DNA of 56,868 nucleotides from Clostridia bacterium (GTDB lineage: Bacteria > Bacillota > DSM-521 > Neomoorellales > SLTJ01), in contig JANLFO010000016.1 in the NCBI GenBank assembly GCA_024653205.1, positions 1 to 56,868 of the forward strand, read 5' to 3'. The position numbers and the translations under genes were made by a program. This document shows positions 24,322 to 52,213 of this stretch, piece by piece. The stretch's first letter is position 1. Every line of letters begins with the position of its first letter. A model generated the notes under the pieces. The model searched no databases. It saw nothing but the letters and a program-made list of their open reading frames with translations, and was not told where the DNA came from.

Positions 24322-24557
24322 AAACGAGATAACTCAGCGGAGCACCCTGCGGTGTGCGAGGCCGTCGGCCAGTTTTGGGCCAACAGCAAGAAAAAGGGAG
24401 CCCGGCCTCTGGGTGTGGCGTGCAGGCCCCCTCGGCGGGGAAACATAAAGCATCCAGGAGGGCACCCACCTGCGAGAGCGGGTCTAGAAACTACGGCGGT
24501 CAACGGCACCAGTGGGGTGCTACTCTAGTTTCGGGGCAGTTGCCGCCCCGGCTTTTT
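24322..24557 (+). ncRNA. ssrS: probable 6S RNA
   Basis: A noncoding stretch of about 235 bases with its own promoter and a terminator. The ends pair into a long rod: AACT..AG..GAGCACCC (24331-24347) with GGGTGCTaCTCTAGTT (24515-24530), and inside it GCCGT with ACGGC and GGTG with CACC. The upper arm pairs AGCCCG..CTC..GGGTGT with GCACCC..GAG..CGGGTCT. A rod with internal bulges is the 6S form, which binds sigma-A RNA polymerase. The site is right: in Bacillus subtilis a 6S gene lies between aspS and rarA. The family was not tested with a covariance model. Confidence 0.7.
24532..24557 (+). terminator. intrinsic terminator of the 6S RNA candidate
   Basis: CGGGGC-agttgcc-GCCCCG followed by GCTTTTT. 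It closes the structured RNA 20 bases before the rarA start, so rarA transcription must come from read-through or a promoter not recognised here. Confidence 0.8.
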
Positions 24558-39767: not shown

Positions 39768-40373
39768 ATGTACGTAAGCGCCTTCAATCCTCAGGCCATG
39801 GCTTTCGCCCAAGGCGGACAGATGGCCTCGGCTCTGCCTCCGGCCCTTACCTGGACTGCCCAGCCGATTGCCACGGCAGGGATGATGCCCCCCGCTTATC
39901 CGGGTATAGGGTACATGCTGCCGGCAAGCAGTGCCTGGGTGCCGGCCATTAGCGCCGGAGCCTTCGGCTTGCCGATGGGTCACGCCATTACGTACAGCTT
40001 CGTGCCGGCCATGGGTACGGGCATCGCCTCGTCGGCCCTCGGCCCCGAGTTCCGCTACCTGCATACCGGGGCAGGGCTGGTAGAGCCGCGGGTAGAGATT
40101 TCGGAGACCAACAGCGACATTGTGGTTACCGCCGAGCTTCCCAACATTAACCCCAGCGACCTTAACCTGACGGTGACCGACGATTCGTTGAGCATTTCCT
40201 GCACCGCGTTTGCCGGCGGTATTCCCACCAGCGTCCACCGTACCATCGCCTTGCCTACTTCGGTAAAGGCCGAGCAGGTCACCGCCAATTACAGCAACGG
40301 GATCCTGGAGTGCCGCCTGCCCAAGTCGGACCTTGCGGCCCGCAGGCGCATTCGGGTAAATCCTATGGGCTAG
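39768..40373 (+). CDS. Hsp20/alpha-crystallin-domain protein with long N-terminal arm
   Basis: A 201-residue protein. Residues 1-100 are low-complexity, rich in Ala, Met, Pro and Gly (AFAQGGQMASALPPAL, ATAGMMPPAYPGIGYM), and residues about 105-195 form an alpha-crystallin domain (EPRVEISETNSDIVVTAELPNINPSDLNLTVTDDSLSISC, NGILECRLPKSD). An IRV motif near the end matches the I-x-V anchor of small heat-shock proteins. The likely role is a holding chaperone or a spore protein like CotP. AGGAGG lies ahead of the ATG. It is followed by a strong terminator and a second related gene. Confidence 0.85.
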   Translation: MYVSAFNPQAMAFAQGGQMASALPPALTWTAQPIATAGMMPPAYPGIGYMLPASSAWVPAISAGAFGLPMGHAITYSFVPAMGTGIASSALGPEFRYLHTGAGLVEPRVEISETNSDIVVTAELPNINPSDLNLTVTDDSLSISCTAFAGGIPTSVHRTIALPTSVKAEQVTANYSNGILECRLPKSDLAARRRIRVNPMG

Positions 40374-40382
40374 AGCTTCCGC

Positions 40383-40422
40383 GGCGGGGCGGCCGCATTG
40401 CCGCCCCGCCGGGGGTTCTTTT
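40383..40422 (+). terminator. intrinsic terminator between the two alpha-crystallin genes
   Basis: GGCGGGGCGG-ccgcattg-CCGCCCCGCC is a perfect 10-bp stem followed by GGGGGTTCTTTT. It should stop most transcripts after the first gene, so the second may be made at a lower level. Confidence 0.8.
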
Positions 40423-40446
40423 GGCCTCCGGTGAAGAGGTGAGAGC

Positions 40447-40860
40447 GTGTACCACATACAGGTAGCGTGGCCCTATTTTTCCACCGCCCTCCCCCCGACG
40501 GAGCTGCCGACGGCTACTCCTGCGGCCCCGGCCCCCCGTGTGGATCTCCTGGAATCCGACCGGGAGGTAGTGGTGATCATGGAGGTTCCCGGCAGCAAGG
40601 CCGACCAACTGGCCGTGGAGGTGCACGATCAGCAGCTGGAGGTCAGCGGAAGCGTAGGCTCCGGCCTGTCCGAGGCCCAGCCCGGTCTGGTTTACCGCTA
40701 CCGGGAGCGGGCCCAAGGGGATTTTCGCCGCCTGCTGAGTCTGCCTGCGCGGGTGGATTCTGCTCTGGCCACGGCCACCCTTCGGGAAGGGCTCTTGATG
40801 GTGCGCCTCCCCAAGGCAGACCGCTCCCCGTCTCAACCCAGGAAGGTGAGCATAGGCTAG
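40447..40860 (+). CDS. Hsp20/alpha-crystallin-domain protein
   Basis: A 137-residue protein with a short Pro/Ala/Thr-rich arm (ALPPTELPTATPAAPAP) and an alpha-crystallin domain: VDLLESDREVVVIMEVPGSKADQLAVEVHDQQLEVSG, RYRERAQGDFRRLLSLPARVDSALATATLREGLLMVRLPKAD. The C-terminal VSI fits the I/V-x-I/V anchor. It is clearly related to the gene before it but shorter. The start is GTG with AGAGGTGAG ahead. No CIRCE operator is seen. Confidence 0.85.
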   Translation: MYHIQVAWPYFSTALPPTELPTATPAAPAPRVDLLESDREVVVIMEVPGSKADQLAVEVHDQQLEVSGSVGSGLSEAQPGLVYRYRERAQGDFRRLLSLPARVDSALATATLREGLLMVRLPKADRSPSQPRKVSIG

Positions 40861-41144
40861 GTCCGGCCCGGGTCTCCGGGTGGACGAATCGTCCGTCCCT
40901 TTCTGCTTCTCCCACCGCAACTGTTTCGGTGTGGTATACGGTTTCGGCAGGGGTTCCGCAGACCCTGTCGAAATGGTTTCTTGGAGTGTGCCGGTATCCG
41001 CCTGGCGGGCCGGGTTACGGAGGCTGCCTTCATCGTTCCCGCCTTTATGTAGCCAAATTTACATTTCTGGTGTAATAAACCTTACCGTTGCTCATCCCAC
41101 GGCGGTTTACAATTATACCAAAAGTGTAAGGCAGCAAGAGATGC
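40861..41144. other. long noncoding regulatory stretch upstream of the bam operon
   Basis: Nearly 480 noncoding bases separate the second alpha-crystallin gene from the AOR-type gene. The first 190 show no gene or clear signal. The AT-rich segment from 41045 to 41130, in an otherwise GC-rich region, holds two operator-like sites, and the sigma-54 promoter follows. Confidence 0.6.
41059..41129. promoter_or_regulatory. two inverted 18-bp sites, likely activator-binding (enhancer) sites
   Basis: Site A, TTACATTTCTGGTGTAAT (41059-41076), and site B, TTACACTTTTGGTATAAT read on the minus strand (41112-41129), agree at 15 of 18 bases. Each has TTACA...TGTAA-like dyad ends. Their centres are 53 bases apart, about five helical turns, and they lie 16-86 bases upstream of the sigma-54 element. 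This is the layout of binding sites for a bacterial enhancer-binding protein. The protein itself is not encoded in the window. Confidence 0.65.
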
Positions 41145-41160
41145 TGGCACGGGTCTTGCA
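41145..41160 (+). promoter_or_regulatory. sigma-54 (RpoN) promoter of the bam operon
   Basis: TGGCACGGGTCTTGCA matches the -24/-12 consensus TGGCACG-N4-TTGC(A/T) at every conserved position. The expected start is near 41171, leaving a leader of about 170 bases before the first gene. Sigma-54 promoters need an ATP-driven activator, which fits the inverted sites just upstream and implies tight substrate control. Confidence 0.82.
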
Positions 41161-41340
41161 AGTTCTTGTTTTTCGGCAGGGTGTTGGCCGGAGGTCTAGC
41201 CGGGTCTTAGGGATTAGGCGGAGGCTTGGAAGTAAGGGGGGTATGACGGCTCTACGCCTGTAAGGAACCGAAAAGCGGTCTAGGCGGTTAAGGCAGAACT
41301 AATCAGCGGACATCGGAGGGAAAGAGAGGAGTGACCGGAA

Positions 41341-43323
41341 GTGAGGTATGCGGAAACCGGATATAACCTGGAAGTGGATCTTTCTACCGGCAAGGTGGAA
41401 AAAGTAGAGACCGACCCCCGCTGGACGGAATTGTTTCTTGGGGGGCTAGGGACCAACGCCCGGCTAATCTGGGATAGAGTTCCGCCGGAGGCAGACGCGT
41501 TTTCCGAGGAGAACATACTGGTTATTAGCGCCGGGCTGCTCGTAGGTACGCCGGTGATCGGGGCGAACCGGGCGATCGTGAGCAGCATCTCTCCAACGAC
41601 CGGACTCTTCGTGTTTTCCATGGCCGGAGGCTTCTTCGGCCCGGAACTCAAGCACGCCGGATACGACAAAATAATCATTAAAGGAAAATCGCCCAAACCA
41701 GTATATCTTTGGATTCATAACGATCACGTCGAGATCCGGGACGCCAGCCACCTGCGGGGCAAAGGCAGCCTGGAAACGATCGAGCTCTTGCGGCAGGAGC
41801 TCAAAGACCCGCGGGCCCAGGGAATAGCCATCGGTCCGGCGGGCGAAAACCGCGTGTACTTCGCCTCCATTGAGACCACGCGGGGCAGTTTCAGCCGCGC
41901 GGGCGTGGGCGCGGTGATGGGGGACAAAGGTCTCAAGGCGGTGATGGTCCGGGGAACCCGAGAGGTCAACGTGCTCCAGCCGCGCGAAGTCTACGAGTTC
42001 AGCAACGAGGTGCTGAGGTTCATACGGCACCGCAAGGAGAACCCGCTCAAGGGCGTGCAGCCCATTCACGAGACCATCGGTGCCCCTCAGGAAATGGTAA
42101 TCGACGACGAAGAGTGGCACTGCAACAACTTCGCCTGGGGACACGCCCGCCAGAGGAGACGTGACTTCTGGAACAAGGAAGTCGAGCAAAGGTGGGCCGA
42201 GATTACCAACCAGGTCAGAAAGCGGCTGATCGGCTGCTACAACTGCCCGCTCTACTGCACCGCTCTTATTTCCGTTCCCGGATACTATCCCTACCACCTC
42301 AAATGCTTCACCAAGCTGACCTACGTGCTGGCGGCCTATGGAGATTTGGACTTCGGCTTCAAGATCAATTCCTATTCCGTGCAGTACGGATTCGACGGGT
42401 ACTCGGCCGCGCAGGTGTGCGCCTTTGCCGTCGAGCTCTACGAGAACGGCATTCTGACCGACAAGGACATGCCGGGTTTCCCCTCCAACAACGAGGAGCG
42501 CTTCTTCTGGCTGCTGGATAAGATCGCCCACCGCGAGGGCATCGGCGATATCCTGGCCGACGGCGTCTACCGGGCGGCCCGGCAGATCGGTCGCGGCGCC
42601 GAAGCCTTCGACCACAACACCATCAAGAAGCTGGAGCAGGTACCGATCAAGCTGGGGATGCTCAACCCGATCTACTTCCTCATGTGGTCCACCAACGAGA
42701 AAGGAAACATCACCCAGGTCGAGGGCCAGGTGCCGCAAGTGCACCTTACCCCGGAGCAGAAGGAAAACTTCATCAAGGACTGGGTCCAGCTTCCCACCAA
42801 GTACGCGGACAAGATAAAGGCCTGGCTCCGGGATTGGCAGCCGCGGGGAGAGCGCTCTTATCCCTTCTGGCCTTCCCTGGATACGGTCTGCGCCCTGGTA
42901 GACTGGCAGGAGGTCATGCACTATCTGGACGACTGCCTGGGGCTCTGTTCCGGCCTGGATGCCTTTGCCTACAAGCCTCCCTACCATGTGCACAATATGC
43001 CCCACCTGTTGAAGATAACCGCCGGTTTGGAGCTGGACGAGGAGTCCTTGTGGGACGCGGCGGTGAGAGTAAGGACCCTGGTACGGGCCATTAACAACAG
43101 CCGCGGGCTGAGAAGGAAAGACGACAAGCCGCCCGAGGACCACTGGAAGCACCGCTTCCCCGAGTACGAGGCCAAGCTCATCGACGCCTTCTACCAGCAC
43201 CGAGGCTGGAATCAGGACGGTATTCCCACCAAGGAGACTCTGGAGCGGCTGCAAATGGGCTTCGTTGCCGAAGAGTTCATCCGCAGGGGCATCCTTACCG
43301 AAGCCGCTGCGGAGGCCAAGTAG
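41341..43323 (+). CDS. bamB: BamB-like tungsten AOR-family subunit (class II benzoyl-CoA reductase type)
   Basis: A 660-residue protein of the aldehyde:ferredoxin oxidoreductase family. The N-terminal pterin domain shows GGLGTNARLIWDRVPPEA and ISPTTGLFVFSMAGGFFGPELKHAGYD. A [4Fe-4S] site is Cys299-x2-Cys302-x3-Cys306 with Cys536 (DDCLGLC) as probable fourth ligand. Cys322, Glu251 and His260 occupy the numbers I recall for the tungsten ligand and active-site residues of Geobacter BamB; this is from memory. The GTG start has AGAGGAG 9 bases ahead. First gene of an eight-gene operon in bam order. The call rests on operon order and size; an AOR acting on another acid or aldehyde is the alternative. 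Confidence 0.82.
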   Translation: MRYAETGYNLEVDLSTGKVEKVETDPRWTELFLGGLGTNARLIWDRVPPEADAFSEENILVISAGLLVGTPVIGANRAIVSSISPTTGLFVFSMAGGFFGPELKHAGYDKIIIKGKSPKPVYLWIHNDHVEIRDASHLRGKGSLETIELLRQELKDPRAQGIAIGPAGENRVYFASIETTRGSFSRAGVGAVMGDKGLKAVMVRGTREVNVLQPREVYEFSNEVLRFIRHRKENPLKGVQPIHETIGAPQEMVIDDEEWHCNNFAWGHARQRRRDFWNKEVEQRWAEITNQVRKRLIGCYNCPLYCTALISVPGYYPYHLKCFTKLTYVLAAYGDLDFGFKINSYSVQYGFDGYSAAQVCAFAVELYENGILTDKDMPGFPSNNEERFFWLLDKIAHREGIGDILADGVYRAARQIGRGAEAFDHNTIKKLEQVPIKLGMLNPIYFLMWSTNEKGNITQVEGQVPQVHLTPEQKENFIKDWVQLPTKYADKIKAWLRDWQPRGERSYPFWPSLDTVCALVDWQEVMHYLDDCLGLCSGLDAFAYKPPYHVHNMPHLLKITAGLELDEESLWDAAVRVRTLVRAINNSRGLRRKDDKPPEDHWKHRFPEYEAKLIDAFYQHRGWNQDGIPTKETLERLQMGFVAEEFIRRGILTEAAAEAK

Positions 43324-43358
43324 ACACTCGGGAATAACCGGCTATGGAGGATTGAGCC

Positions 43359-43907
43359 ATGAGTGGAGAGCAAATCAAGAAGAAAAAAGTCAAGGTCATA
43401 AAGATCGACCCGAGCAAGTGCACGGGCTGTCGCTCCTGCGAGTTGATTTGCAGCGCCTCCCACGCTACGCCCAAGTACGGGAGCACCAACCCGGCCAAGG
43501 CGCGCATTCGCGTGATGTTCAAGCCGCTTGAAAACATATATCTTCCGGTTATGGCCGGCGAGTACACCCCGGCCGAGTGCCCGGGCCGCTATTCTATCAT
43601 CATTGACGGCCAGGAGTACGGCGAGTGCGCGTTCTGTCGGGCTTCCTGTCCTTCGAGGGACCTCTTCAAAGAACCCGATTCCGGCTTACCTCTGAAGTGT
43701 GACCTGTGCGAGAGCGACCCCACTCTGGAAAAGCCCCTGTGCGTCCAGTGGTGCTATCACGAGGCCTTGACCTACGAAGAGAGGGAAGAAGAGGTAACCG
43801 AGGAAGTGAAGCTGGACCAGATGGAGGTTGCTCTGGAGTCGCTGGTAGACAGGTACGGTCTGGAGAAGATAGTGGAAGGCATTGCCCGCATGGCCTCTAA
43901 GGGCTAA
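43359..43907 (+). CDS. bamC: BamC-like polyferredoxin subunit
   Basis: A 182-residue Fe-S protein that would pass electrons to the AOR-type subunit. It holds exactly 12 cysteines: Cys21, 24, 27, 31 (CTGCRSCELIC), 74, 90, 93, 97 (CAFCRASC), 114, 117 (CDLC), 128 and 132 (CVQWC), enough for three [4Fe-4S] clusters. The C-terminal 45 residues are acidic and helical. In class II benzoyl-CoA reductase BamB and BamC form the catalytic unit. The start is ATG with GGAGG upstream, 36 bases after the first gene. Confidence 0.82.
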   Translation: MSGEQIKKKKVKVIKIDPSKCTGCRSCELICSASHATPKYGSTNPAKARIRVMFKPLENIYLPVMAGEYTPAECPGRYSIIIDGQEYGECAFCRASCPSRDLFKEPDSGLPLKCDLCESDPTLEKPLCVQWCYHEALTYEEREEEVTEEVKLDQMEVALESLVDRYGLEKIVEGIARMASKG

Positions 43908-43933
43908 ACCTTAACCGAAAGAGGAGAAGTCCT

Positions 43934-45085
43934 ATGGAAACCGTAGCCCCTTTCAAAGAGGCAATACAGGAGATAAAGGAAAGCGGCGGCGACGTTGTCA
44001 AGTACTGCTACGAGTGCGGTAAGTGCGACACCATTTGTCCGTGGAACAAGGTCACGAATTTCAGCGTGCGGCGGCTAATGCGAGAATCCAACTTTGGCCT
44101 GGCGGAAATCGAGCGGGAAGAGATTTGGCGCTGCACCACCTGCGCGCGCTGTACGTTGCGGTGTCCGCGAGGGGTAAAGCAGCCGGACGCCATGGTGGCC
44201 CTGCGGCGGATCGCAACCAAGTACGGCGTTTACCCTGCTCCGGTGTACCCCGTCCGGACGGCCATGGCCGGCCTCACGGCGGAAGGGAACCCCTTCGGCG
44301 AGGAACGGGCAAAGAGGACGCAGTGGACCGACGGGCTTCCGGTCAAAGCCTTCAGCGAGGGAACCGAGGTCCTGTACTTCCCCGGGTGTTATCCCAGTTA
44401 CGATCCCCGGCTGAAGAAGGTGGCTCGGGCCACGGCCACCATTCTCAGCAAGGCCGGGGTGGACTACGGCATCCTGGGCACCAAGGAAAACTGCTGCGGG
44501 GAGAGCATCCGGCGGACGGGTAACGAAGAACTCTTCAAACGCCTGGCCAAGGAGAACATCAAGACCTTCATCGACAACGGGGTGAAGAAGATCGTCGTTT
44601 CCTCGCCGCATTGCTTCCACACTTTCAAGAACGAATACCCGCAGTTCAGCGTGAACTTCGAGGTAATGCACGTTTCCCAGCTCCTTTGGGAGCTAATCAG
44701 GGACGGAAAGCTCCAGATCACCAAGGGGTATCCGAAGCGGGTAACGTATCATGACCCCTGCTATCTGGGCCGGCACAACGGCGTATTCGACGAGCCTCGA
44801 GAGGTTCTCAAACGCATACCGGGTCTGGAACTGGTAGAGATGCCCGAGTCCGGGAAGAACAGCCTCTGCTGCGGTATGGGCGGGGGCCGGATATGGATGG
44901 AGACTCCCAAGAACGAGCGGTTTTCCAACCTGCGACTGGAGCAGGCCCGGGAGGTAGGGGCAGAGGTGCTGATCACCTGTTGTCCCTACTGCATCACCAG
45001 CTTTGAGGACAGCCGGCTCATCCTTGAGTACACCGACGTGCTGGAAGTCAAGGACCTCACCGAGGTGCTGGCGGAGGTTATCTAG
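43934..45085 (+). CDS. bamD: BamD-like HdrD-family Fe-S protein
   Basis: A 383-residue soluble protein. The N-terminus carries two [4Fe-4S] motifs (Cys25-x2-28-x2-31-x3-35 and Cys67-x2-70-x2-73-x3-77). Two CCG domains follow, YFPGCYPSYDPRL...ENCCGESIRRTGN and HDPCYLGRHNGVF...NSLCCGMGGGRIW...VLITCCPYCITSF, as in heterodisulfide reductase HdrD/HdrB. In the Bam complex this subunit is thought to link the HdrA-like flavoprotein to the catalytic unit. The start is ATG with AGAGGAG upstream. A 156-base GC-rich gap separates it from the next gene. Confidence 0.83.
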   Translation: METVAPFKEAIQEIKESGGDVVKYCYECGKCDTICPWNKVTNFSVRRLMRESNFGLAEIEREEIWRCTTCARCTLRCPRGVKQPDAMVALRRIATKYGVYPAPVYPVRTAMAGLTAEGNPFGEERAKRTQWTDGLPVKAFSEGTEVLYFPGCYPSYDPRLKKVARATATILSKAGVDYGILGTKENCCGESIRRTGNEELFKRLAKENIKTFIDNGVKKIVVSSPHCFHTFKNEYPQFSVNFEVMHVSQLLWELIRDGKLQITKGYPKRVTYHDPCYLGRHNGVFDEPREVLKRIPGLELVEMPESGKNSLCCGMGGGRIWMETPKNERFSNLRLEQAREVGAEVLITCCPYCITSFEDSRLILEYTDVLEVKDLTEVLAEVI

Positions 45086-45241
45086 GGGGGCCGACGGGGC
45101 GGGCGCCCCTCGCCCACCGGGTTCGGTACCGTCCGGGCGGCGCTCCCCCGGGCGGCCTGACGGCCCTCGCCGCCCCGGGGAGATACCGGACGAAGGCTCC
45201 GGGCCAATAAAGTACGAAAGTACGATCGAGGTGGAGAGCAA

Positions 45242-48200
45242 ATGGAGAGGGCAGCAATTGTGGATCTCCTTAAATACCGCAACTTTGGGGACGTAATGGT
45301 GGTCGGAGGGGGAATAAGCGGTATCCAGGCCGCCCTCGATCTCGCCTCGGCGGGGTTCAGGGTGTATCTGGTAGAAAAGTCGCCCTCCATTGGCGGCCAC
45401 ATGGCTCAGCTGGACAAAACCTTTCCTACCAACGATTGCTCCATGTGCATCGAGTCGCCCAAGTTTATCGAGTGCCACCGCCACCCGAACATCGAGATCA
45501 TTACCTACGCCGAAGTGGATGCGGTGGAGGGCGAGCCGGGGAACTTCAAGGTCACGGTAACCAAGAAGCCGAGATACGTTGCCGAGAGCAAGTGTACCGG
45601 GTGTACCACCTGCCGGGAATACTGCCCGCTGCTGGTTCCCGATCCCTTCAACCAGAAGCTATCCAATAACAAGGCCATCCACATCCACTTCGCCCAGGCC
45701 ATTCCCCTGGTTTCCTACGTGAACGAGAACTGCCTCTTCCTGCGCGAGGGGAAGTGCCGGATATGCGAGGGGGTCTGCAAGAACGACGCCATCAACTTTG
45801 CGCAGACCCCGGAGAAGACGGAAATAAGGGTGGGCGCGATCGTTCTGGCGCCCGGTTACGAACCCTTTGATCCGGCCGTGCTTGACGAGTTCAATTACGG
45901 CAAGCTGGCCAACATGGTAACCAGCCTCGACTACGAGCGGATCCTGTGCGCCACCGGGCCTTATGAAGGGATAATCAGGCGGCCGTCGGACCTCAAAGAG
46001 CCGCACCGGATCGCCTGGATCCAATGCGTGGGTTCCCGGCAGGTCATCGAGGGCGCCAACAGCTACTGCTCGGCGGTATGCTGCACCTACACCCAGAAGC
46101 AGGTAATCCTGACCAAGGACCACGTGGCCGATATAGAGTGCACGGTATTCCATAACGACATCCGGTCCTACGGCAAGGATTTCGAGCGCTTCTACCAGCG
46201 GGCGGCCAATCTGCCGGGGGTGCGCTTCATCCGAAGCTACGTAACCGTGGTGGGGGAAGTGCCGGAAACCAAGAACATCGTTATCCGCTACTCCACGCCC
46301 GCGGACGGAGTGAAGGAAGAAGAGTTCGACCTGGTGGTGCTCTCCGTCGGACTGGCCCCGCCTGCCGACGCCAGGGAGCTGGCCCGGAAATTGGGGATCG
46401 AACTCAGCCCGCACGGCTTCTGTCAAAACAATCCATTCAACCCGATCGAGACCAATCGGCCGGGCATCTTCGTAAGTGGAGCCTTCATGGGACCGGTGGA
46501 TATTCCCGAGTCGGTAATGACGGCCAGCGGAGCGGCCTCGATGTGCGGAGAGCTTCTGTCTTACCGTCGGGGCAAGCTGGCCAGAGAAAGGGTATACCCG
46601 CCGGAAAGGGATGTGGCCGGGGAAGAGCCCCGAGTCGGCGTTTTCATCTGTCATTGCGGTGCGAACATCGGCGGAGTGGTCAATGTTCCCTCGGTGGTGG
46701 AATACGCCCGGACGCTGCCCTATGTGGTCCACGCCCAGGATCAGCTCTTCTCCTGTTCGGCGGACTCCGCGCAGCAGATAGCCAACACCATCCGGGAGAA
46801 GGGGATAAACCGCGTGGTAGTGGCGGCCTGCACTCCCAGAACCCACGAGCCGCTGTTCCGGGATACCCTCCGCGAGGCGGGCATCAACCCCTACTACTTC
46901 GAGATGGCGAACATCCGGGAGCACTGCTCCTGGGTTCACTCCCGGGAAAAGGAAGAGGCTACGCGCAAGGCTAAGGACGCGGTCCGGGTCGCGGTGGCCA
47001 AGGCGCTGCGCCTGCAGCCGTTGCAGGAGTTCAACCTCCCCGTCAACAAGAACGCCCTGGTGGTGGGCGGCGGCGTGGCCGGCATGAACTGCGCCCTCAG
47101 TATCGCCAGCCAGGGACACGACGTTTACCTGATAGAGAAGGAAAAAGAACTCGGCGGTACGGCCAGGCGGATCTTCTACACCCTTGAGGGTCAGGACGTT
47201 CAGGCCTATCTCCGGGAACTCATCCAGAGGGTGTACCAGCATCCCCGGATCCACGTCTACACCAATGCTTACCTGCTCGACAGCACCGGGTACGTAGGAA
47301 GCTTCGTGACCAGGGTGGCCTCGGGAGAGAAGGTTATCGAAATAAGGCACGGAGCGACGGTAGTGGCAACCGGAGCGGAGGAGTACCGGCCCACGGAATA
47401 CCTGTACGGCCAGGACGAGCGGGTACTCACCCAGCTGGATCTGGAGGAAAAGATCGTGCGTGCCCCGGAAAGCCTGGCCGGGTGCGAAACCGTGGTCATG
47501 ATCCAGTGCGTGGGAAGCCGGCAGGAAGACCGCAACTACTGCTCCCGCGTATGCTGCAGCCAGGCGGTCAAGAACGCCCTGAAGCTGAAAGAGATCAATC
47601 CTAACCTGGACGTGTACGTCCTCTTCCGGGACATGAGAACCTACGGCCTGAAAGAGGATTACTACCGCGAGGCGGCGGATAAGGGCGTGCGGTTCCTCCG
47701 TTACGAAGAGACCGACAAGCCGCAGGTGGAGCCGGCGGTGGAAGAGGGCCGGGAGGTACTCAGGGTGACGGTAACCGACCAGGTTCTGGGCAAGAGGATC
47801 GCCATCGACGCGGACCTCCTGATCCTGTCCGCAGCCGTGGTTCCCTCCCCGCAAACCAAGGAACTATCGCAGCTCTTCAAGGTGCCGGTAAACCCGGACG
47901 GCTTTTTCCAGGAGGCGCACGTGAAGTTGCGGCCCGTGGACTTCGGGGCCGAAGGCGTATACCTCTGCGGCACGGCCCACTATCCCAAGCACCTTCAGGA
48001 AGCGGTGGGGCAGGCTTACGGAGCGGCCGGCCGGGTCCTCACCCTGCTGTCGCACGACACGGTGGTGGCCTCGGGTTCGGTGTGCGAGGTAGATGAGGAC
48101 AGGTGCGTGGCCTGCGGAGCGTGCATCTCGGTCTGCGCTTACGGGGCCATCGAGTTCCGGCAAACGCCGCAAGGGAAGAAGGCCACGGTTAATCCGGTGC

Positions 48201-48373
48201 TGTGCAAGGGCGACGGTCTCTGCAACACCAAGTGCCCGACCGGGGCCATCTCGCTAAAGCACTTCACCAACGAGCAAATCCTGAGCCAGATCGACGCGGC
48301 GGCTGGATCGGAAGCGTGGATGCTTACCGAGCAAGGAGGCGTGGGCGACTATGGAAAGAGGGTCGCAGTTTAG
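45242..48373 (+). CDS. bamE: BamE-like large HdrA-family flavoprotein
   Basis: A 1043-residue protein that looks like two HdrA-type modules in line. Module one has a FAD site at residues 22-27 (VVGGGISG), the HdrA cysteine motif (DCSMCIESPKFIECHRHPNIEII) and a ferredoxin part (CTGCTTCREYC; CRICEGVC). Module two has the HdrA N-terminal block (GVFICHCGANIGGVVNVPSVVEYARTLP; CTPRTHEPLF), a second FAD site at 609-614 (VGGGVAG) and a C-terminal two-cluster ferredoxin (Cys955, 958, 961, 965 and CKGDGLCNTKC). HdrA flavins carry out electron bifurcation, which fits driving a very low-potential reduction. It overlaps the next gene by 23 bases. Confidence 0.85.
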   Translation: MERAAIVDLLKYRNFGDVMVVGGGISGIQAALDLASAGFRVYLVEKSPSIGGHMAQLDKTFPTNDCSMCIESPKFIECHRHPNIEIITYAEVDAVEGEPGNFKVTVTKKPRYVAESKCTGCTTCREYCPLLVPDPFNQKLSNNKAIHIHFAQAIPLVSYVNENCLFLREGKCRICEGVCKNDAINFAQTPEKTEIRVGAIVLAPGYEPFDPAVLDEFNYGKLANMVTSLDYERILCATGPYEGIIRRPSDLKEPHRIAWIQCVGSRQVIEGANSYCSAVCCTYTQKQVILTKDHVADIECTVFHNDIRSYGKDFERFYQRAANLPGVRFIRSYVTVVGEVPETKNIVIRYSTPADGVKEEEFDLVVLSVGLAPPADARELARKLGIELSPHGFCQNNPFNPIETNRPGIFVSGAFMGPVDIPESVMTASGAASMCGELLSYRRGKLARERVYPPERDVAGEEPRVGVFICHCGANIGGVVNVPSVVEYARTLPYVVHAQDQLFSCSADSAQQIANTIREKGINRVVVAACTPRTHEPLFRDTLREAGINPYYFEMANIREHCSWVHSREKEEATRKAKDAVRVAVAKALRLQPLQEFNLPVNKNALVVGGGVAGMNCALSIASQGHDVYLIEKEKELGGTARRIFYTLEGQDVQAYLRELIQRVYQHPRIHVYTNAYLLDSTGYVGSFVTRVASGEKVIEIRHGATVVATGAEEYRPTEYLYGQDERVLTQLDLEEKIVRAPESLAGCETVVMIQCVGSRQEDRNYCSRVCCSQAVKNALKLKEINPNLDVYVLFRDMRTYGLKEDYYREAADKGVRFLRYEETDKPQVEPAVEEGREVLRVTVTDQVLGKRIAIDADLLILSAAVVPSPQTKELSQLFKVPVNPDGFFQEAHVKLRPVDFGAEGVYLCGTAHYPKHLQEAVGQAYGAAGRVLTLLSHDTVVASGSVCEVDEDRCVACGACISVCAYGAIEFRQTPQGKKATVNPVLCKGDGLCNTKCPTGAISLKHFTNEQILSQIDAAAGSEAWMLTEQGGVGDYGKRVAV

Positions 48374-49118
48374 ACCGAAGATATTGGGTTTCCTCTGCAA
48401 CTGGTGTGCTTACGGCGGCGCCGACCTCTGCGGAGTCTCGCGCTACCAGTACCCTCCCTACCTGAGAGTGGTTCGGGTAATGTGTTCCGGACGGGTCGAC
48501 ATGGGGTTCGTCCTGCGGGCTTTCCAGAACGGCATGGACGGAGTATTCGTGGGCGGGTGCTGGCCCGGTGAGTGTCACTACATTACCGAGGGTAACTACG
48601 ATGCTCTGGCCATGATGCACCTGACCAAGAAACTGCTGCGCGAGATCGGCATCAATCCCGAGAGAATGAGGCTGGCCTGGGTGTCGGCCTCGGAGGGCGT
48701 GCGCTTTGCCGAGATCATGAACGAGTTCAGCGCCAAGGTGAGGGAACTGGGCCCGCTCGGCAAAGGCGAAGGTCTGGACCCGCAGACCCTGGCGGTCAGG
48801 CTGGAAGCCGCAGCCAAGCTCGTTCCCTATATAAGGCTGGTGGAAAGAGAAAGACTGAGACCCCCCGTGCGCACCGAAGAAGCTTACAACGAGTTCTTCA
48901 CCGGCGAAGAGGCAGATCGGATCTTTAAGGAGTTGGTCGTCAGCAGGCTGGTGGAAAACGAGGTAATGCTGCTCCTGCGCAAGGGTCCGCGGTCGGCGGG
49001 AGACATCTGCGGCGCCCTGGGTCTAACCATATCGGAAGCCCTGGGTTACGTGAACCCGTTGGTGAGAGACGGGCTGGTCAGGTACGACGTGGAGCACAAC
49101 CGATTCGCGCTTGCCTAG
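48351..49118 (+). CDS. bamF: BamF-like MvhD-family subunit
   Basis: A 255-residue protein. The first 140 residues match MvhD/FrhD-type iron-sulfur proteins (ILGFLCNWCAYGGADLCGVSRYQYP, VRVMCSGRVDMGFVLRAFQNGMDGVFVGGCWPGECHYITEGNYDA), with cysteines for a [2Fe-2S] cluster linking HdrA to an electron input module. The last 75 residues (EEADRIFKELVVSRLVENEVMLLL...SAGDICGALGLTISEALGYVNPLVRDGLVRYD) look like a winged helix, unusual for MvhD. No in-frame TGA occurs, so the cysteines here are not replaced by selenocysteine, which some BamF proteins contain. It overlaps bamE. Confidence 0.8.
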   Translation: MERGSQFRPKILGFLCNWCAYGGADLCGVSRYQYPPYLRVVRVMCSGRVDMGFVLRAFQNGMDGVFVGGCWPGECHYITEGNYDALAMMHLTKKLLREIGINPERMRLAWVSASEGVRFAEIMNEFSAKVRELGPLGKGEGLDPQTLAVRLEAAAKLVPYIRLVERERLRPPVRTEEAYNEFFTGEEADRIFKELVVSRLVENEVMLLLRKGPRSAGDICGALGLTISEALGYVNPLVRDGLVRYDVEHNRFALA

Positions 49119-49206
49119 GTACGGGCCGGGAGGCAGACTGCGGAGCCGTGCCGGCAGGCGCAAGATAGTGGTCGGGCCCACGAAACGAGAAAGGGAGAGG
49201 CGGCAG

Positions 49207-49683
49207 ATGGGTATGAACAAGGATAAGGTAAACGAAGTCGTCGATAGGGTAGTCGAGAAGCACCGGGGCGAGCCCAGCGCGCTGATCCAGGTTCTGCTGG
49301 ACATACAGAGCGAGATCGAGTGGCTGCCGCAGGAGGTACTGGAAAGGGTTAGTGAGAAGCTCGGGGTACCCCTCGGTCGGGTAAGGAACGTGGTAACTTT
49401 TTACAAGGCCTTTCAAACCGCCCCGAAGGGACGCCACGAGGTTCGGGTCTGTACCGGTACGGCCTGCCACGCGCTTGGAGCCTCTCGCATCCTGGAAACG
49501 GTAGAGGCTGTGACCGGCGTGAAGCCCGGAGAAACCGACGTCGACTCCAGGTTCACCGTGAGGGCCGTGAACTGCCCCGGGTGTTGCGCCTCGGGTCCCG
49601 TGGTGGAAATCGACGGGAAGACCTTCGGTAAGATAAGCGCATCGGAGTTGGTAGAGCTCCTGAGGAAGTACGAGCGGGAGTAG
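49207..49683 (+). CDS. bamG: BamG-like NuoE-family [2Fe-2S] subunit
   Basis: A 158-residue thioredoxin-like protein of the 24-kDa (NuoE/HoxE) family. The N-terminal helices (ALIQVLLDIQSEIEWLPQEVLERVSEKLGVPLGRVRNVVTFYKAF) are followed by the cluster ligands in VCTGTACHALGA and NCPGCCASGPVVEI. It should pair with the NuoF-like subunit to take electrons from NADH. The ATG at 49207 has GGGAGAGG ahead; in-frame codons farther up lie in a basic stretch unlike the family. Confidence 0.88.
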   Translation: MGMNKDKVNEVVDRVVEKHRGEPSALIQVLLDIQSEIEWLPQEVLERVSEKLGVPLGRVRNVVTFYKAFQTAPKGRHEVRVCTGTACHALGASRILETVEAVTGVKPGETDVDSRFTVRAVNCPGCCASGPVVEIDGKTFGKISASELVELLRKYERE

Positions 49684-49699
49684 GAGGAGGAAATGGGTC

Positions 49700-51610
49700 A
49701 TGCCCCGAGTTAGTTCTCCGGCGGAGTTAGAGAAACTGCGGAATGATATCCTGGCGAGGCGGGGCGCGGACCGGCGCTACGTTTGCGTTCCCTTTGGATC
49801 GGACTGTCGCGCGGCGGGCAGCGGGGAGGTAGCGGCAAGGCTGGAGGAAGAACTGCGCAAGCAGGGACTGGACCGGGAAATCGCGGTCAAGCGGACCGGC
49901 TGCCTCGGGCTTTGCGAGCGGGAGCCCATGCTGGTCATCTACCCGGAGGGGATCTGCTACCTCGACGTACGACCTGAAGACGTACCCGAGATCGTGGGCC
50001 AAACCATAAAGGGAGGGAAGCTCGTTGAGCGCCTGCTCTACGTGGACCCGGCAAGCAACGAGAGGATAGCCTGCATCAACGACATTCCCTTCTATAAACA
50101 CCAGGTACGGCTCCTACTCGGGGTTACACCTGAGGTAGATCCCGCCAGCATCGAGGACTATCTGGCGGTAGGCGGCTATTCGGCCCTGGCCAAGGCGCTC
50201 TTTGAGATGACCCCGGAGCAGGTGATTACGGAGGTCAAGAAATCGGGGCTGAGGGGTCGGGGGGGTGCGGGCTTTCCCACCGGCCGCAAGTGGGAGGAGG
50301 CCAGGCACGCACCCGGCGACCTCAAGTACGTGATCGTGAACGCCGACGAGGGAGACCCCGGGGCCTTCATGGACCGCAGCGTGCTGGAGGGGAACCCGCA
50401 TTCGGTGCTGGAGGGGCTGATTATCGGCGGATATGCCGTGGGCGCCCGGGAAGGGTTCTTCTACGTTCGCGAAGAGTACCCCCTCGCCCTGGAACACGTG
50501 AGACTGGCCATTAAGCAGGCCGAAGAATACGGCTTCCTGGGAAAGAACATCCTGGGATCGGGCTTTGACTTCACCGTCACGGTGCACCAGGGAGCGGGCG
50601 CCTACGTGGTGGGCGAGTCCAGTGCCCTGATGACGGCCATAGAAGGGCGGGTAGGCGAACCCCGGCCGAAATACATTCACACCGTCGTCAAAGGGGTCTG
50701 GGGTCGGCCGAGCGTGCTGAACAACGTGGAGACCTGGGCGAACGTACCGCAGATAGTCAACAAAGGCGGGGACTGGCTTGCCGGGTACGGCACGGAGAGA
50801 AGCAAGGGCACCAAAGTGTTCTCTCTGGTAGGGAAGGTCAACAACCCCGGCCTGGTTGAGGTTCCCATGGGAATGACCCTGAGGGACATAATCTACAAGA
50901 TCGGCGGGGGGATGCGCGGCGGCGGCCGGTGCAAGGCCGTTCAGACCGGCGGGCCCTCCGGCGGGTGCATTCCTGAGGATCTCCTGGACCTCCGGGTGGA
51001 CTTCGACGAATTGACCAAGGCCGGTTCCATCATGGGCTCCGGCGGAATGATTGTGATGGACGATGAGACCTGCATGGTGGATCTGGCCAGGTATTTCATC
51101 GAGTTCCTCAGCGACGAGTCCTGCGGAAAGTGCGTGCCCTGCCGCGAGGGACTGCGGCAGATGCTGGGAATACTGACGGACATCACCAAGGGTCGGGGGA
51201 AAGAGGGCGACATCGAGACCCTGGAGGAATTATCGGAGGTTATGATGGATGCCGCGCTCTGCGCCCTCGGGCGGGCGGCGCCTACCTCGCTGCTCTCCAC
51301 TTTGCGCTACTTCCGAGACGAGTACGTGGCGCACATAAGAGACAAGAGGTGCCCGGCACTTTTCTGCAAGGATCTGGTGGCCTACTGCATCGACCCGCAG
51401 AAATGTTCGGGTTGCGGCAAGTGCCTTGCGGTCTGCCCCACGGGCGCCATCGTGGGTAGTGAGAAGCAGCCGCATGCGGTAGACCAGGCGAAGTGCAGGA
51501 AGTGCGGGGCTTGCCTGGAAGTATGTCCGCCCGAGTACGGAGCGGTTAGCAAACTCTCGGGTGAGCCCGTACCCTCCGCGGAAGCGGCCGCAACTCTAGC
51601 CAGAGCGTAA
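49700..51610 (+). CDS. bamH: BamH-like NuoF-family flavoprotein
   Basis: A 636-residue NADH-binding subunit. An N-terminal thioredoxin-like [2Fe-2S] domain (about 25-125, RTGCLGLCEREP) precedes the NuoF core: FMN/NADH loops GLRGRGGAGFPTGRKW (near 185) and NADEGDPGAFMDRSVLEGNPH, GAGAYVVGESSALMTAIEG, and the cluster Cys475, 478, 481 (CGKCVPCREG). A two-cluster ferredoxin ends the protein (Cys569, 572, 575, 579 and CRKCGACLEVCP). The layout matches HydB/NfnB-like and BamH proteins. The ATG follows AGGAGGAGG. Confidence 0.88.
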   Translation: MPRVSSPAELEKLRNDILARRGADRRYVCVPFGSDCRAAGSGEVAARLEEELRKQGLDREIAVKRTGCLGLCEREPMLVIYPEGICYLDVRPEDVPEIVGQTIKGGKLVERLLYVDPASNERIACINDIPFYKHQVRLLLGVTPEVDPASIEDYLAVGGYSALAKALFEMTPEQVITEVKKSGLRGRGGAGFPTGRKWEEARHAPGDLKYVIVNADEGDPGAFMDRSVLEGNPHSVLEGLIIGGYAVGAREGFFYVREEYPLALEHVRLAIKQAEEYGFLGKNILGSGFDFTVTVHQGAGAYVVGESSALMTAIEGRVGEPRPKYIHTVVKGVWGRPSVLNNVETWANVPQIVNKGGDWLAGYGTERSKGTKVFSLVGKVNNPGLVEVPMGMTLRDIIYKIGGGMRGGGRCKAVQTGGPSGGCIPEDLLDLRVDFDELTKAGSIMGSGGMIVMDDETCMVDLARYFIEFLSDESCGKCVPCREGLRQMLGILTDITKGRGKEGDIETLEELSEVMMDAALCALGRAAPTSLLSTLRYFRDEYVAHIRDKRCPALFCKDLVAYCIDPQKCSGCGKCLAVCPTGAIVGSEKQPHAVDQAKCRKCGACLEVCPPEYGAVSKLSGEPVPSAEAAATLARA

Positions 51611-51622
51611 GGAGTGAACGTG

Positions 51623-52213
51623 ATGAGTGAAGTCACTCTGCAGATTGACGGAATCCAGGTCAGGGCCACCGAGGATATGACCGTCCTGGAGGCAGCCAAG
51701 AACGCGGGAATATCGATTCCCACCCTTTGCTACCACGAGAAATTGGAGCCCTACGGCGCCTGCCGGCTCTGCATGGTGGAAGTAGAATCGGGCGGCAGGA
51801 CCAGACTGGTGGTGTCCTGTGTCTACCCCGTAGAGGACGGCCTCATTGTAAGGACCAAGTCGGAGAGGCTGAGCAAGATTCGTAAGACGATCATAGAGCT
51901 GCTGATGGCCCACGCACCGGATTCGCCGGTATTGCAGGAGTTGGCCGCCGAATACGGTGCGGAACGGGACCGCTTTGCGAAACAATCCTCCTTCTGCCTG
52001 CTCTGCGGCCTGTGCGTGAGGTACTGCGCCGAGGTCAAGAAGAAGTACGCCATCGGCTTCGTGGATAGGGGCATAAGGCGAGAAATCAGCTTTGTCCCCG
52101 AGGTCGCCGCCAGGGAGTGCTGGAACTGCAAGGAGTGCTTCTCCCTCTGCCCGACCTCCTACCTCCAGGCGGTGTACGTTCTGACCGAGGCTCTGGCGGG
52201 TGCGGGCAGATAG
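51623..52213 (+). CDS. bamI: BamI-like NuoG N-terminal Fe-S subunit
   Basis: A 196-residue protein. The first 80 residues form a plant-type [2Fe-2S] domain (Cys36, Cys47, Cys50, Cys64), followed by two [4Fe-4S] motifs, CLLCGLCVRYC and CWNCKECFSLC. It corresponds to the N-terminal third of NuoG and to BamI, which closes the electron chain of the Bam complex. The ATG at 51623 is chosen with TAAGGAG 9 bases upstream rather than the GTG at 51614. It is the last gene of the operon. Confidence 0.83.
   Translation: MSEVTLQIDGIQVRATEDMTVLEAAKNAGISIPTLCYHEKLEPYGACRLCMVEVESGGRTRLVVSCVYPVEDGLIVRTKSERLSKIRKTIIELLMAHAPDSPVLQELAAEYGAERDRFAKQSSFCLLCGLCVRYCAEVKKKYAIGFVDRGIRREISFVPEVAARECWNCKECFSLCPTSYLQAVYVLTEALAGAGR

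Follow-up and report, generated by a model that had tools for sequence, protein, structure and literature searches.

A putative sigma-54 promoter and paired upstream dyads before a class II benzoyl-CoA reductase operon of a Clostridia bacterium

The bamBCDEFGHI operon of a Clostridia bacterium is probably run by sigma-54 from a promoter at positions 41145–41160, through a PAS-type enhancer-binding protein (EBP) that is encoded in trans and acts at two sites upstream. The window analysed here is a stretch of 56,868 nucleotides (contig C16) from a genome assembly of 2.46 Mb in 51 contigs that is 98.8% complete. The sigma-54 holoenzyme binds -24/-12 elements as a stable closed complex and depends on an EBP oligomer to hydrolyse ATP. 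In the mechanism that we propose, the sigma-54 RNA polymerase holoenzyme would sit at the -24/-12 element as a closed complex, while the trans-encoded PAS-type AAA+ EBP would bind as dimers at two TTACA-N7-TGTAA sites separated by some five helical turns, assemble, and remodel the closed complex through ATP hydrolysis. Production of benzoyl-CoA reductase would in that case be limited to an inducing condition, for which an aromatic acid or a CoA ester thereof is the probable cue. The binding of an EBP at the two sites, the identity of this protein and its signal are what we infer.

The operon and the element before it

The operon spans positions 41341–52213, and the domain content of its eight proteins identifies a complete set of BamC to BamI type subunits, in order, behind BamB. 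The BamB protein scores 934 bits against a benzoyl-CoA reductase (PDB 4z3w) versus 210 bits against an aldehyde:ferredoxin oxidoreductase (1aor). This difference and the subunit order establish that the "bam-type operon" of the preliminary description is a class II bamBCDEFGHI operon, with the following genes.

41341..43323, + strand: bamB, catalytic subunit of class II benzoyl-CoA reductase, 660 aa (AFOR_N and AFOR_C domains)
43359..43907, + strand: bamC-type ferredoxin subunit (Fe-S domains, operon order)
43934..45085, + strand: bamD-type HdrB/D-like subunit (CCG and Fer4 domains)
45242..48373, + strand: bamE-type HdrA-like flavoprotein, 1043 aa (NF040770 HdrA2, 964 bits, below the cut-off of the model)
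48351..49118, + strand: bamF-type MvhD/FlpD-like subunit (PF02662)
49210..49683, + strand: bamG-type NuoE-like subunit (PF01257; start assumed within the open reading frame 49111–49683)
49700..51610, + strand: bamH-type NuoF-like subunit (PF01512, PF10589)
51614..52213, + strand: bamI-type NuoG N-terminal-like subunit (PF13510, Fer4)

Genes of the lower pathway lie on contig C10, where bamA (C10:25331–26410, TIGR03200) and nearby bamQ (TIGR03201) both score above the cut-offs of their models, together with a dienoyl-CoA-hydratase-like (bamR-like) protein, which falls below the cut-off of that model, and decarboxylase genes. The presence of bamQ and bamA in addition to bamB–I points to a real benzoyl-CoA pathway. 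A second bamB, 62% identical to the first, is located at C9:44212–46158 (L097:11213–13159) and is followed by bamC-, bamE- and bamF-like genes; it lacks a strong sigma-54 element. Elsewhere in the window, positions 1–307 at the contig start hold the 3' end of a 23S rRNA and a 5S rRNA, and a 6S RNA is recognised by Rfam at 24341–24522.

The gap before bamB is bordered immediately on its 5' side by two neighbouring Hsp20-like genes (39768–40860), both scoring below curated cut-offs. Apart from the paired sites described further below, it contains the following features.

40861..41340, + strand: gap of 480 bp separating bamB from the second Hsp20-like gene; it contains the promoter, both sites and about 170 nt of leader
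40878..40898, + strand: terminator-like hairpin 3' of the Hsp20-like genes (one found versus a chance expectation of 1.3, hence weak)
41145..41160, + strand: sigma-54 -24/-12 element TGGCACGGGTCTTGCA (12/12 consensus; predicted start about 41168–41171)

The element agrees with the sigma-54 consensus TGGCACGNNNNTTGCW at all 12 specified positions; the GG of the -24 box occupies 41146–41147 and the GC of the -12 box 41158–41159, with 10 bases between them, and the context TGGCACG-N4-TTGCW is matched as well. The base at 41171 is T, and G41168 is the purine nearest to the predicted start. Under an order-1 Markov model, the expected number of perfect -24/-12 elements is 0.013 in the window and 0.55 in the genome, where 5 are observed; for one strand of the 480-bp gap the expectation is 5e-5.

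Recurrence at other bamB loci

We scanned 31 regions upstream of bamB relatives, a few of which are copies within one genome, and used shuffled regions as a control. Six of the 31 loci possess a -24/-12 element scoring at least 10/12 with intact GG and GC, compared with 0.3 expected from shuffling, and five possess one scoring at least 11/12 (0.025 expected). The same scan of 27 aldehyde:ferredoxin oxidoreductase controls yielded one element at 10 and none at 11. The six loci are the window, L052, L055, L059, L061 and L155. Four besides the window are of Bacillota type: L052, L055 and L061 are Peptococcaceae/Desulfitobacterium-like records and L155 comes from G291, a genome of the same phylum as the window genome; L059 belongs to a non-Bacillota MAG.

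This recurrence, well above chance, bears on a different reading of the locus, in which the -24/-12 match is coincidental and the operon is transcribed from a sigma-A promoter at another place in the 480-bp gap. Such a reading could appeal to the 25 of 31 bamB loci that have no strong sigma-54 element, including both bamB copies of G002 and the second bamB of the genome studied here (C9:44212). It is opposed by the recurrence in related loci, by the very low expectation of a perfect element in the gap and by a search for sigma-70-like promoters that found none within 40500–42000, and we regard it as very improbable. A predicted sigma-54 promoter before the bam operon is thus supported: the element reported in the preliminary description is exact to the base, matches at 12/12 positions, occurs in a genome with rpoN and recurs at other bamB loci.

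The bamB promoters of Peptococcaceae bacterium CEB3 (L052), Acididesulfobacillus (L055) and G291 (L155) resemble that of the window in combining a strong -24/-12 element with an upstream dyad. Their dyads differ from those in the window, being of the type TGCAT-N6/7-ATGCA (TGCATTACAACAATGCA, TGCATCATGACAATGCA and TGCATTACATAATGCA, respectively) and lying about 200–240 bp before the -24 box; at L061 a looser candidate site, GACATCATACCAATGCA, was read by eye. A second difference is that in CEB3 a gene for a PAS-PAS-AAA+-HTH activator stands directly before the bamB promoter. A 75% identical copy of this activator is encoded on another contig of G291, which makes an arrangement in trans plausible there, although that assembly is fragmented. 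In the window genome no close relative of the CEB3 activator was found at 1e-100, and the best EBPs of its own are about 39% identical. In Acididesulfobacillus, only the 3' part of a similar EBP gene (L055:8865–9395, 176 aa) precedes bamB.

The paired sites upstream of the promoter

Two 18-bp sites lie between the Hsp20-like genes and the -24 box.

41059..41076, + strand: distal putative enhancer site TTACATTTCTGGTGTAAT (17-bp dyad TTACA-N7-TGTAA at 41059–41075; centre at about -104)
41112..41129, - strand: proximal putative enhancer site TTACACTTTTGGTATAAT (imperfect dyad at 41113–41129; centre at about -50)

The positions of the two sites, their identity at 15 of 18 bases in inverted orientation and the distance of 53 bp from centre to centre were all reproduced as first reported. 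Within each 18-mer, 17 bp form an imperfect palindrome, TTACA-N7-TGTAA, and thus a dimer site. From one palindrome centre to the other the distance is 54 bp, or about 5.1 helical turns, so that two dimers would face almost the same side of the DNA. Since each site is palindromic in its own right, the "opposite orientation" of the pair carries little weight. Of the earlier proposal of paired inverted enhancer sites, the paired dyads upstream of the promoter stand, while the argument from orientation is weak and the proximal site is close to the promoter. When the 480-bp gap was dinucleotide-shuffled 1000 times, an inverted pair of 18-mers with at least 15/18 identity within 100 bp arose in 9 cases; shuffling just the 120 bp that precede the -24 element produced such a pair in 4 of 2000 trials. 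A search of the whole 2.46-Mb genome for the motif, which the preliminary description had called for and which allowed up to two mismatches, returned only the distal and proximal sites at zero mismatches. The combination of proximal site and promoter was sought in 398 genomes across the phylum and was matched only in the window and once in G394, where the match falls inside a coding sequence on the other strand. Near relatives yielded no phylogenetic footprint of the TTACA-N7-TGTAA sites: in the assembly of G001, the genome with the closest bamB found (69%), the 5' end of bamB was not found, and neither bamB copy of G002 has a strong element. These observations weigh against the proposed mechanism, as do the other sequence and the greater distance of the sites seen in relatives.

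Binding of an EBP at both sites is plausible. The upstream sites of EBPs typically lie at about -80 to -200 from the start; the distal site, at about -104 relative to the start predicted at 41171, is within this range and the proximal site, at about -50, is outside it. A centre so unusually close for an enhancer leaves room for a reading in which the sigma-54 promoter is real but a repressor or another non-EBP regulator uses the pair as its operator to loop or block the promoter, with EBP sites elsewhere or weak. Dyads of the TTACA-N7-TGTAA type are used by many regulator families, and a repressor operator would have the same sequence signature. Moreover, no EBP of this genome was matched to the bam motif, and a repressor of benzoate metabolism, BgeR, is named for Geobacter in a title cited in PMC6678401. 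Against the operator stands the layout, since EBP dimers usually bind in this way, at two similar dyads that immediately precede a -24/-12 element with some five helical turns between them; in addition, the best 18-bp pair in the gap is the one at 15/18, and no second pair of at least 15/18 was seen there. We consider the operator unlikely, although it is the strongest of the competing explanations, and favour two EBP dimers at the sites.

Candidate activators and comparison with known systems

The rpoN gene, whose absence the preliminary description had named as counter-evidence, is present in a single copy on contig C4 (PF04552, E=3.6e-55 at C4:106890–107360, within a 500-aa open frame). The search for sigma-54 activators that it had also proposed revealed six complete EBPs (PF00158) and one fragment, the complete ones on contigs C1, C5, C9, C10, C14 and C15. 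No PF00158 match was found on the window contig C16, in agreement with the earlier statement that the activator is encoded outside the window. All six EBPs combine PAS, AAA+ and Fis-type HTH domains, to which the C10 protein adds PrpR_N and the C1 protein GAF, and a response-regulator receiver domain was found in none of the six; this predicted composition fits ligand sensing. A -24/-12 element is located within a few hundred bases of the EBP on C15, C10, C1 and C5 and about 7 kb from that on C14; near the C9 EBP no element scoring at least 9/12 was found.

The EBP on C10 deserves separate consideration. The lower-pathway operon, which ends in bamR-like, bamQ and bamA genes, has its own -24/-12 element and adjoins this PrpR_N-type EBP, and an ortholog of the EBP (79% identical over 630 aa) occurs in G001, the bearer of the closest bamB. 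Both observations would suit a scenario in which the C10 EBP also switches the bamB–I operon. However, the gap between the EBP and the operon on C10 shares with its counterpart in G001, which belongs to another genus, a conserved site, GGGTTTG(A/T)TTTTTGAACAGA, beside an equally conserved -24/-12 element, and this site differs from the bam motif. Its best match in the bam gap is 10/17, a level reached by 432 of 500 shuffles; conversely, C10 lacks the bam motif. The absence of each site from the other region argues against the C10 EBP, which we consider disfavoured and its control of bamB–I improbable. These results suggest that both halves of the benzoyl-CoA pathway could be switched via sigma-54, through different enhancer sites.

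The promoters assigned to the C14 and C15 EBPs have sites of the TGTAT/ATACA type, and that of the C1 EBP has TGTGTC-N11-GACACA. With the C10, C14/C15 and C1 proteins associated with other sites, elimination leaves the C9 EBP, the C5 EBP or one missing from the assembly. The C9 PAS-domain EBP leads weakly. Its gene is about 6 kb from the second set of bamB, bamC, bamE and bamF, and a 67–69% identical copy exists in G001; two relatives at about 50% identity adjoin fumarase-like (G143) or succinyl-CoA-synthetase-like (G002) genes. By our judgement, and with no computation behind these weights, the C9 EBP has a chance well short of even, the C5 EBP a somewhat smaller one, and the rest falls to the other EBPs or to one missing from the assembly. 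A short frame with a sigma-54 AAA+ stretch at C10:72993–73590 (L041:6994–7591) is apparently the remnant of an EBP gene, and the corresponding fragment, C10:73381, was set aside as a candidate on that ground.

NtrC binds the enhancer site TGCAC-N7-GTGCA. The sites in the window are likewise dyads of 17 bp whose half-sites measure 5 bp, and they too precede a -24/-12 element; they differ from NtrC-class sites in the half-site sequence and in the proximal position at about -50. Sigma-54 control of bam genes is reported for Geobacteraceae in PMC11497800, which cites Juarez et al. 2010 on BamVW, and BamVW and BgeR are named as regulators in PMC6678401. In Geobacter the control is also by sigma-54, and BamVW is a two-component system, whereas the candidate activators here are PAS-type one-component EBPs, the phylum is different and the promoter lies before bamB itself. 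For the bss/hbs operons of Geotalea daltonii, PMC11497800 describes -24/-12 promoters and Fis-type EBPs with 5' RACE support. The same elements thus serve anaerobic aromatic genes there, for other enzymes; the EBP gene of Geotalea daltonii adjoins its operon divergently, whereas the window contains none.

No description of sigma-54 control of bam in Bacillota was found in the open literature searched. The type of switch is familiar, while neither its application to the bam operon in this group of bacteria nor the remote position of the activator seems to have been described. What is new is that sigma-54 elements recur upstream of bamB in Bacillota and that the activator sites change. These results lead us to speculate, tentatively, that sigma-54 control of the bam operon is widespread in Bacillota while the activator has changed along with its DNA site. 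CEB3 and relatives would pair TGCAT-N6/7-ATGCA with a PAS-PAS EBP, the genome studied here would pair TTACA-N7-TGTAA with a different EBP encoded at a distance, and its lower pathway would use a third combination of site and EBP type. If true, the promoter class would have been kept while one enhancer-binding protein was replaced by a non-orthologous one. Among the papers found, accounts of how class II (tungsten) benzoyl-CoA reductase operons are regulated exist for few organisms, chiefly Geobacter, and none for Bacillota came up in the open library searched; the present analysis adds testable promoter coordinates, a genome-unique motif and six candidate activators.

Two further perfect -24/-12 elements of the genome are located on C4, and the 16 kb read around them (L034) contain no EBP. 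They lie at C4:130858 and C4:134376, the second immediately before a NiFe(Se)-hydrogenase operon.
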